Shown piece after piece: positions 36,703 through 38,344 of a stretch of 38,423 bases of DNA. Numbering within the stretch: the first letter of the stretch is position 1; each line of letters opens with the position of its first letter. Under the pieces are notes generated by a model. The model worked only from the letters and a program-made list of their open reading frames with translations, ran no database searches and was not told the origin of the DNA. Position numbers and translations under genes: made by a program. The stretch is from a virus, in the IMG/VR virus record IMGVR_UViG_3300047560_000427, positions 1-38,423 of that record. One strand, given 5' to 3'.

Positions 36703-36845
36703 TTGGAACCTTTCCGTTTGTGTTCAGCGTCACGTTTTACCGCATACGCAATTGCCACCGCTTGTTTCTGAGGCTTACCAGCCTTGACTTCAGCTTTGAC
36801 ATTCGATTTAAAAGCCTTCTCAGACTTTGACTTTTTCAACGGCAT
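36699..36845 (-). CDS. Conserved basic micro-protein MPLKKSKS..., 48 aa
   Basis: ATG 36845 to TGA 36699. MPLKKSKSEKAFKSNVKAEV and GKPQKQAVAIAYAVKR match a small family widespread in phages (pattern KKGKSxK...GKPQKQAVAIA). Basic and helical, probably nucleic-acid binding; no established role. It was found only by reading the gap between larger genes. Confidence 0.7.
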   Translation of the reverse strand: MPLKKSKSEKAFKSNVKAEVKAGKPQKQAVAIAYAVKRDAEHKRKGSK

Positions 36846-36846
36846 T

Positions 36847-37332
36847 TTAGACCTTTCTTAAAGAATCAAGGAAATCATCTAACGCATCATCAGCCGACAC
36901 ATCTTCTTCTTTAACCAAGTTCTGTACGTGCTCAATAGAGATTACAGGTGCTCGACTCGATTCAAATGTAGCCAGCTTCTCTGCAATCTTAGACTTTTCT
37001 TTCAAATCTAGTTCGTCAGACTGCATAGCTTCAATCAAAACTTCCATTGCTGTCTTCAAAGGAGGCAACCCTTTTTCAATATGAGCTTCGTTTAGTTTAT
37101 TAAACAACGCGCCATATTCTGTGACACGGTTAACAATAGACTTAGGACGACCTTTGGTGTTTCGGTTGGCAGGGTCAGACAAGCCACCTGTATTTTCACG
37201 TGGAAGTTTGTCACCAGAAGCCAATCTCATTGCTTTACGTTCGGCACGTTTGATAGCCGCAATCTCACGAGCAGCAGCTTTTTCTTTTTCTGATTTAACA
37301 GTAGAACCTTCAGGTCTTATTTCGTCAAACAT
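36847..37332 (-). CDS. Terminase small subunit candidate, 161 aa
   Basis: A basic helical N-terminus contains NRNTKGRPKSIVNRVTEYGA, a GRPK-type DNA-binding patch. It is followed by MEVLIEAMQSDELDLKEKSK and IAEKLATFESSRAP, which resembles the middle helices of small-terminase-like proteins (short stretch DPDxDxxxRLxAAE...). The C-terminus is acidic (DDALDDFLDSLRKV), as needed for oligomer or TerL contacts. Position near the head of the packaging block agrees. Not certain without alignment. Confidence 0.5.
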   Translation of the reverse strand: MFDEIRPEGSTVKSEKEKAAAREIAAIKRAERKAMRLASGDKLPRENTGGLSDPANRNTKGRPKSIVNRVTEYGALFNKLNEAHIEKGLPPLKTAMEVLIEAMQSDELDLKEKSKIAEKLATFESSRAPVISIEHVQNLVKEEDVSADDALDDFLDSLRKV

Positions 37333-37844
37333 TTATAAGCCTCTTCAGTACGAATCCAAGCATAGCTGCCATTTGTTGTGAAACCACGTTTACGGTGGAT
37401 CTTCATAAAACCATCATGGTCAGCCCTGATAGATGTAGAACAAACAACAGGGATACCCCAAGTATGCGCCCATAGTATATGTTGGTCAATCATCTCATTA
37501 ACAAGGCGTACACGAGTACGTACAGGCAAACTAAGATCCAAATGGTGGAACTTTGCATTTGAAATCTCTTCATTAGAGTAGGTTGTATAACCGCCACGGT
37601 CAAACCAGCAGAACCCAAGAAGGTCGCCAGAACCGTATTCAGGAGGATCAAAGCTTCGACATACAGCAATAAACTCACGGCCTTTGTTGAACAGTTGTTC
37701 AGTAGTAGCTACAGTAACTCTGTGTCGAAACACATTACGGTCTCTAGTCAAGATGCCATCAGCTTCATGCCCAAACCAACTATCAGCCATTTCAACAATA
37801 TCGTCTATATCATGTAGGGGATGCGCAAGAGACCATTCAGTCAT
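37317..37844 (-). CDS. GNAT-type acetyltransferase-like protein, 175 aa
   Basis: LLGFCWFDRGG gives the central strands, HHLDLSLPVRTRVRLVNEMI is the acetyl-CoA-binding strand-helix region, and MKIHRKRGFTTNGSYAWIR is the GNAT-like ending. The canonical Q/RxxGxG/A loop is not clear, so activity is uncertain. GNAT-like proteins are found beside terminase genes in several short-tailed phages. The substrate is unknown. It overlaps the TerS candidate by 16 bases. Confidence 0.6.
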   Translation of the reverse strand: MTEWSLAHPLHDIDDIVEMADSWFGHEADGILTRDRNVFRHRVTVATTEQLFNKGREFIAVCRSFDPPEYGSGDLLGFCWFDRGGYTTYSNEEISNAKFHHLDLSLPVRTRVRLVNEMIDQHILWAHTWGIPVVCSTSIRADHDGFMKIHRKRGFTTNGSYAWIRTEEAYKCLTK

Positions 37845-38041
37845 TTCATTCTCCGGATAGCTTCAGACCGATATTTCTCGTACTCAGACGCAAACAGTTC
37901 ATCAGCTAAAGAACTAATGTCTTTCTTAATCTTTTTATCAGCCAAAGTCTCCAACAAAGTAATGATGTCAGACAGCTTATCGCTAATGACCCACAACCAC
38001 AGAAGAATGATCGCCGAATAAAACCACATTACTAATTCCAT
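37841..38041 (-). CDS. Small membrane-anchored protein, first secure late gene, 66 aa
   Basis: An N-terminal span (about 3-20, LVMWFYSAIILLWLWVIS) is followed by a charged helix with ADELFASEYEKYRSEAIRRM. ATG 38041 has GAGG seven bases before it. It overlaps the GNAT gene as ATGA. Function unknown; it heads the late operon directly after the structured leader. Confidence 0.6.
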   Translation of the reverse strand: MELVMWFYSAIILLWLWVISDKLSDIITLLETLADKKIKKDISSLADELFASEYEKYRSEAIRRMK

Positions 38042-38044
38042 GCT

Positions 38045-38281
38045 TTACCTCGCGGAGCAAATTTTTATAAAATTGACCGTCTCTCCGATCTGCCTCTGGG
38101 TTTGACCTTCAGCCTCCCCAGTTGAGACTCCGTATCGCACGACTTTCGGGAAGGTTTCCCTACACGGTCTATCGTTCTGGCCGTTAACGTGCTGATTCAC
38201 ACCAACACGGCTGAAGACTTTGAAAGTGCCGCCCGTTGCTCTCAGCGACCCTTCCATCCGTAGCACCGGATAAATCTTCAT
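38045..38281 (-). CDS. Doubtful ORF overlapping the structured leader, up to 78 aa
   Basis: A frame starting MKIYPVLRMEGSLRATGG (an upstream ATG at 38308 sits inside the TATAAT box) runs to a TAA three bases before the next gene. That spacing is gene-like. However, no good ribosome site precedes either ATG, the sequence is GC-rich and full of inverted repeats, and no family is recognised. I consider a non-coding leader about as likely. Confidence 0.3.
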   Translation of the reverse strand: MKIYPVLRMEGSLRATGGTFKVFSRVGVNQHVNGQNDRPCRETFPKVVRYGVSTGEAEGQTQRQIGETVNFIKICSAR

Positions 38282-38292
38282 GCGTCTTGATG
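38050..38292 (-). ncRNA. Candidate structured leader / non-coding RNA of the late operon
   Basis: This GC-rich stretch stands out from its AT-rich surroundings and contains many complementary pairs: 38075-38080 with 38164-38169, 38079-38083 with 38124-38128, 38096-38100 with 38117-38121, 38148-38152 with 38156-38160, and 38256-38260 with 38267-38271. The pair 38130-38135/38162-38167 closes only with a G-U on the minus-strand RNA, while another hairpin (38235-38249) favours the plus strand, so the strand is not settled. It starts just downstream of a TATAAT box and ends at the ribosome site of the first late gene. It matches no RNA class that I can name. Confidence 0.35.
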
Positions 38293-38299
38293 TTAGTTC

Positions 38300-38305
38300 A
38301 TTATA
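38300..38305 (-). promoter_or_regulatory. TATAAT -10 box, candidate late-operon promoter
   Basis: A perfect -10 on the minus strand, about 260 bases before the first secure late gene. The best -35 candidates are poor: TTGCTT lies 20 bases upstream, which is too far. An activator-dependent promoter is possible. Confidence 0.4.
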
Positions 38306-38344
38306 CATAGGTAAAGAAACTTTTAAAGCAAAAATTTTTATAGG

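Follow-up and report, generated by a model that had tools for sequence, protein, structure and literature searches.

A putative modular RNA with tRNA-like units in phages of Burkholderia-like hosts

On the minus strand between positions 38292 and 38075, the window examined here (the whole stretch of viral DNA, 38,423 nucleotides in length) appears to encode a modular structured RNA belonging to a phage RNA family with no match in the Rfam scans. Comparison of related sequences indicates that this family is built from a double stem, the A module, around interchangeable bodies, together with tRNA-like B units and a C hairpin, and that it occurs as a single array in each long record, clustered with tRNA genes that run in the same direction. 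The RNA is present in hundreds of virus contigs, often beside tRNA or packaging genes, in phages of Burkholderia-like hosts, and the class is apparently undescribed so far. The explanation we favor, with a probability of roughly 0.45, is that the late region opens with a stable RNA which mimics tRNA, is produced together with phage tRNAs and would engage the tRNA-handling machinery.

An initial annotation of the window proposed a GC-rich, foldable leader behind a TATAAT box, and this part of it is borne out by the minus strand of 38310-38042, which lies 3' of a promoter-like site. GC content is 0.525 between 38100 and 38299, higher than the 0.39-0.45 of the intervals from 36800 to 38000. The minus strand of 38042-38300 folds to -81.1 kcal/mol, compared with -71.5 +/- 4.9 for dinucleotide shuffles, a moderately unusual value (z -1.96, equally low in 7 of 200 shuffles), and the plus strand of the same region folds no better than its shuffles (z +0.80). 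The relevant strand is minus. The TTTAAA-16-TATAAT pair matches 10 of 12 consensus letters, and the RNA start predicted near 38293 would place the A stem at the RNA 5' end. The features of the region are listed below.

38322..38327, minus strand: -35-like hexamer TTTAAA, a consensus match only, with 16-nt spacing to TATAAT
38300..38305, minus strand: -10 box TATAAT, a consensus match, 21 nt from CGCAUG
38200..38292, minus strand: putative A module, comprising an outer stem, a CA/GY internal loop, an inner stem UGAAGAUU/AGUCUUCA and a variable body
38279..38284, minus strand: CGCAUG, the 5' conserved core of the A stem
38220..38272, minus strand: A-module body with two predicted hairpins (body folding z -3.25)
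38202..38219, minus strand: AGUCUUCAGCCGUGUUGG, the 3' conserved core of the A stem
38095..38199, minus strand: linker domain joining A to C, similar in part to L100 and L081 (three sequences)
38075..38094, minus strand: C hairpin GGCA-GAUC-GGAGAGAC-GGUC
37841..38041, minus strand: first downstream gene, 66 aa, with no assigned function

The A hairpin at 38292-38200 scores 58.0 bits (E 7.7e-16) against a model that has the window among its training sequences. Its stem carries AA/UU where GG/CC is usual, a compensatory difference, and U38280 and G38279 correspond to tRNA positions -1 and +1 in the numbering of an ARAGORN call on one relative's module (L103). The array in the window consists of A and C, with a downstream domain of its own that has no clear tRNA fold. 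A switch between two helices had also been proposed (38075-38080/38164-38169 against 38130-38135/38162-38167). The former is a perfect 6-bp match and the latter has, by eye, one mismatch; neither is kept in the two nearest relatives, a comparison of three sequences only, and this suggestion was not upheld. The strong structure lies elsewhere, in the A hairpin and the C hairpin (38094-38075).

Relatives of the element came to light through both protein and DNA searches. A tblastn search with an 87-aa frame (38308-38045) matched six contigs over residues 6-43 only, and in these six (L003-L008) a DNA block of about 90 nt, consisting of body and arms, is 91-95% identical, the flanks being otherwise unlike. 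Where the window has GAAGA/UCUUC, all six contigs have GGGGA/UCCCC, which is a paired change. In L011, identical outer arms recur four times around differing centres. In the sister phage MW202484.1 (87.7% identity in the large terminase), the arms stand at the corresponding place around a 105-nt centre, as against 53 nt in the window, directly after a tRNA-Asn whose CCA runs straight into A. A pattern scan of IMG/VR with CGCATGNNGATT-N{32,62}-AGTCNNCAGNCG gave at least 120 viral stretches, and the pattern of an AG/CT sub-class alone also gave at least 120. From both scans and other loci, at least 314 modules were read in at least 232 loci, with two to four modules in 72 of 233 locus-strands. 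Matches in L018, L044, L094, L106 and L116 were omitted from most counts as chance-like (NN unpaired or no outer stem), and L003-L006 are duplicates of L009-L012. A bacterial genome collection held seven exact matches, all in Betaproteobacteria-type records: Chromobacterium (Chromobacterium subtsugae is among the titled carriers), Variovorax, Paraburkholderia, Pandoraea, Polynucleobacter, one Burkholderiales MAG and one Pseudomonadota MAG. Surveying the order of the Polynucleobacter genome gave 3 of 399 genomes, the Pseudomonadota MAG again among them, and a phylum survey gave 1 of 398, namely the query genome itself. Five phages reached by terminase similarity (KX815270, MW202879, MW202711, MW202496 and, for bases 8000-57457 only, MW202545) contained no match to the model.

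Across the family, the double stem of A, ACACG-CA-UGNNGAUUG / CAGUCNNCA-GY-CGUGU, hardly varies, while the body that it encloses can be exchanged and measures 27 to about 105 nt. The initial annotation had read the leader as a possible RNA and called for a covariation comparison, and compensatory changes in the relatives strongly back that reading. Among 127 aligned modules, a set thinned by shared 8-mers, body length and pairing score, 93.0% of the cells of the 19-pair stem are paired and 12 of the 19 pairs show double-side changes. Double-change cells number 170, compared with 46 in shuffles, and the covariation score is 0.272, compared with 0.119 for shuffles and 0.05-0.10 when slid. Pairing of the free NN positions is seen in 119 of 123 pattern matches and in 307 of 310 modules, with more than 10 combinations. 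The two strands of the stem also differ, with a wobble U-G conserved in 125 of the 127 modules and a 2x2 internal loop of CA facing GY, and this asymmetry points to RNA. Because the scan itself demanded the core letters, 67 modules that do not satisfy its pattern were examined separately; U-1, G1 and A73 are found in 67 of 67 and C72 in 66 of 67, in modules that still came from a motif search allowing two mismatches per arm. Position 4 varies together with its partner in the same modules. Together U-1, the G1-C72 pair and A73 are determinants of the 5'-end cleavage site of tRNA, as in an RNase P substrate. A role of position -1 is described in the literature. One A module, in L103, is itself called a tRNA by ARAGORN, with the acceptor GGGGAUU/AGUCCCC, and is the sole such A module among 60 loci. 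Taken alone, the bodies fold only slightly more stably than shuffles (mean z -0.76, n=127).

The B units are tRNA-like, and the A and B-I stems both covary. For the GUUGGUG 3' arm, an exact 6-nt partner lies within 200 nt in 88 of 168 modules, compared with 16.9 expected. Twenty-six distinct B-I units fit an arrangement of a 7-bp acceptor, D-like and T-like hairpins and a 6-bp kiss between the D-loop and T-loop; 97.7% of their cells are paired, with 26 double-change cells against 6.8, in a set of 26 from 30 sequences from which four plainly non-B-I ones were dropped by eye, a choice that favors the B-I structure. The kissing pair 20-139 is GC in 16 units, AU in 6 and GU in 4. Over all 90 mixed B candidates, loop kissing was observed in 26 against a weak control in which shuffles had a mean of 15.1 and a maximum of 22. 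B is recognized in part of the family only (122 distinct candidates, loosely assigned, for 310 A modules), and the units in which an acceptor-like stem with a stacked T-like hairpin and a D/T contact is found are the 26 B-I units of relatives. One large cluster of bodies (140 entries, single linkage) spans A, B and flanking positions, and visual inspection finds the motif GGGUUAGCGCC...CUGCUUUAUGUG within A stems as well as B stems. C, a hairpin with a GGARAGAC loop, follows the pattern GRCA-N4-GGARAGAC-N4', which is found 14 times in the array regions (123,766 nt) and 0 times on the opposite strand there, compared with 2 times in 1,877,650 nt outside arrays; only 13 of 130 arrays contain the hairpin. 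Of 17 contigs matched by a DNA pattern for C, the five with A, close relatives of each other, all have paired C stems and the 12 without A have none.

In each of 39 long records, one array holds all of the A modules. Within 800 nt of 189 non-identical arrays, 36 tRNAs are called in 305 kb, all on the same strand, compared with 8 elsewhere in 1.23 Mb; a few odd calls (tRNA-???), the L103 A module itself among them, are part of these counts. A tRNA is detected in that range for only 26 of the 189 arrays, and ARAGORN finds no tRNA in the window. At L002 41503-41718, the CCA end of tRNA-Asn continues into A, and the near-relative window copy has A and no tRNA there. Hexamers resembling a -10 box lie 12-35 nt upstream of the first CGCATG, mostly at 19-23 nt, in 34 cases compared with 9.7 expected (N=165); such a box upstream of A is enriched in the family and is not universal. 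Full sigma-70 promoters with both hexamers within 120 nt show no enrichment (17 of 115, compared with 14 of 115 for the opposite strand). The first ORF downstream that has 130 aa or more runs in the direction of the array at 84 of 130 loci, against it at 23, and is absent at 23; for the first such ORF upstream, the corresponding figures are 56, 25 and 49. Part of the downstream bias therefore reflects general gene direction. The terminase family phrog_2 is found in 37 of the 67 loci with a large co-oriented downstream ORF, and other terminase families occur as well, multiple matches being possible; with the array standing before terminase genes in many relatives, the description of the neighboring gene as the first late gene was a fair one. 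Other downstream genes encode primase/helicase, ribonucleotide reductase, baseplate and unknown proteins. In L027, L083, L031 and L054, the array is upstream of ribonucleotide reductase or primase/helicase and not of terminase.

If the element is a stable tRNA mimic, the RNA would start at about 38293 and lead the late transcript, and the host tRNA-handling machinery would recognize the tRNA-like units at their acceptor-like end. The RNA could then accumulate beside the phage tRNAs, with the swappable bodies as its variable working part, for example as a decoy for, or a modulator of, tRNA-binding or tRNA-cutting host proteins. The stem covariation, the tRNA likeness of the B-I units and of the L103 A module, the U-1, G1, C72 and A73 identities, the neighboring tRNA genes and the arrays that end at an intrinsic terminator just after B (L171, L050) all speak for a mimic. 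Against it stand the small share of arrays with a nearby tRNA, the lack of one in the window, the recognition of B in part of the family only, the absence of a clear tRNA fold in the window's downstream domain and the weak kissing control. In addition, no RCCA follows the acceptor-like stem (A has AGYC; B most often has AAC), and flanking bases lengthen the A stem and should hinder maturation; the missing RCCA and the paired flanks both argue against ordinary tRNA maturation. RCCA dependence is reported for one RNase P substrate (PMC12710915). A more specific and rather improbable proposal is that the arrays serve RNA-based counter-defence or host takeover, with a constant acceptor-like handle for production and stability and with swappable bodies, traded between unrelated phages, acting as decoys to tRNA-binding or tRNA-cutting host proteins.

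A serious though less probable alternative is that the array leads the late transcript in cis and, while it is being transcribed, works on host RNA polymerase in the manner of HK022 put, giving antitermination without a phage protein. The promoter-like box about 20 nt upstream in the window, and enriched in the family, would suit such a leader, as would the co-orientation of the downstream gene in 84 of the 107 loci with a call and the many terminases among these genes. A near-invariant stem shared by phages with a variety of terminases, with bacterial carriers that are all of Betaproteobacteria type, suggests a host partner such as polymerase, and none of the 39 records has a PF06530 antiterminator Q. 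T7-type polymerase (PF00940) had no match in the 39 records, in a search whose control matched nowhere either. However, terminators are not enriched downstream of arrays (10 of 104, against 14 of 104 upstream), a few arrays ending at an intrinsic terminator just after B (L171, L050), and boxA (CTCTTTAA-like, from the lambda-type nut site) occurs 0 times in 157,013 nt of array regions. There is also one array per record and not one per operon, 23 of 107 downstream genes are opposed, and some arrays precede primase or ribonucleotide reductase. A put-like leader would moreover leave the tRNA neighbors, the tRNA-like folds and the body swapping unexplained.

These properties could also be expected of a self-assembling or scaffold RNA like ROOL or GOLLD, held by loop-loop contacts between modules, in that the element is a structured phage RNA near tRNA genes with kissing loops, but this is unlikely given that Rfam gives no match to either, that the conserved part is a small stem and no large ornate fold, and that array length and bodies vary widely. 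The position of the A stem at the predicted +1 would allow a 5'-end hairpin that shields the late transcript from decay; any stable hairpin would suffice for that, with no need of near-invariant unpaired and wobble positions, and we hold this to be quite improbable. The inverted ends, variable core, adjoining terminase genes and exchange of bodies between unrelated phages recall a DNA-level element, such as an integron attC-like recombination site, a mobile inverted-repeat element or a packaging site. Yet the fixed strand difference (CA vs GY; U-G wobble in 125 of 127) is needless for a DNA repeat, of the RYYYAAC ... GTTRRRY boxes that mark attC, the GTTRRRY end is seldom seen here (GTTGGTG in 92 of 168 3' arms and GTTGGGT in 5), and the element is common to phages with divergent terminases, all of which makes a DNA function very unlikely. 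There is next to no chance that the 87-aa frame is a protein-coding gene. The frame is open and has its tblastn matches in six contigs, but these end at the A module, the lengths of the bodies fall evenly into all three frames (43/43/41), the body in MW202484.1 has 105 nt where that of the window has 53, and Pfam and PHROG give no match. The initial annotation was right that no ribosome-like site precedes the frame; its ATG (38308-38306), which had been placed within the -10 box, adjoins the box and lies upstream of any transcript from the TATAAT promoter.

Scans of the window and 40 distinct loci with Rfam 15, ROOL and GOLLD included, gave only tRNAs above gathering score. SmY, FuFi-1, anti-hemB and sR30 appeared as weak sub-threshold hits that do not fit the element. 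Of the three identities first suggested, an unknown RNA class fits best because no Rfam family matches, and the tRNA neighbors make a stand-alone phage RNA plausible; the third, a put-like antitermination or attenuation leader, is possible. In the account of HK022 (PMC9378689), put measures about 70 nt, forms two stem-loops and serves the early operons of a phage with a gamma-proteobacterial host; it is likewise a phage structured RNA, with putL just downstream of a promoter and no dedicated protein. Here too a promoter may lie directly upstream, as predicted in the window and as enriched but not universal in the family. Unlike put, A forms a single long stem with interruptions, B units often come after it, the modules stand in tandem with swappable bodies, and there is one array per record, in Betaproteobacteria-type carriers and often beside tRNAs. 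ROOL and GOLLD, which PMC12286853 describes as phage RNAs often near tRNA islands, share with the element a phage-borne structured RNA near tRNA genes, but they are large folds in Rfam, whereas the element has small repeated stems, exchangeable bodies and no Rfam match. Likeness to tRNA and viral tRNA-like structures is found in the 7-bp acceptor-like stem, in A73, in the D/T-like kissing hairpins of B-I and in some bodies with TTCRA T-loops. Unlike tRNA, the element has no CCA and no consistent anticodon arm, and its conservation lies at the acceptor-like end and not in the loops. The antisense RNA of phage P4 CI and P1 C4 (c4) is a phage RNA with tRNA-like processing, but the Rfam scans gave no c4-family match and the anatomy is different. 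The literature searched, mostly open papers, gave no description of the RNA, and an unpublished or paywalled account is possible.

Near-invariant stems in more than 200 viral contigs, without a match in the Rfam scans, would represent unrecognized, common phage biology around Betaproteobacteria, and a plan of constant handle and variable body is unusual for a bacterial or phage RNA. The stable tRNA-mimic explanation raises the question of whether such mimics let phages control late expression or weaken tRNA-targeting defences. Phage tRNAs are reported to evade defences of that kind (PMC11555353).

Several further elements accompany the arrays. At L171:4127-4238, a B-I unit has a second, truncated tRNA with D-arm and T-arm sequences in place of the anticodon arm and is followed by an intrinsic terminator. 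Upstream of A in L016, L056 and L097, a hairpin with a GUGAAARGC loop stands where other arrays have C. A conserved long hairpin body, GTTAAGCCAGC..GAGGATG..CTGGCTTTCC..GAAGACC, lies downstream of A in L008, L014, L049, L073, L074, L091, L093 and L128; it is common to unrelated phages and ends in a T-run in L008. The sequence GGGGGGCCCAGTCCCCCATTCCCAAATTTTT lies upstream of the promoter in the window, at 38401-38371 (minus strand). It recurs in MW202484.1 (41382) and, with slight changes, in L065, and may be an upstream promoter element or a packaging-related site.
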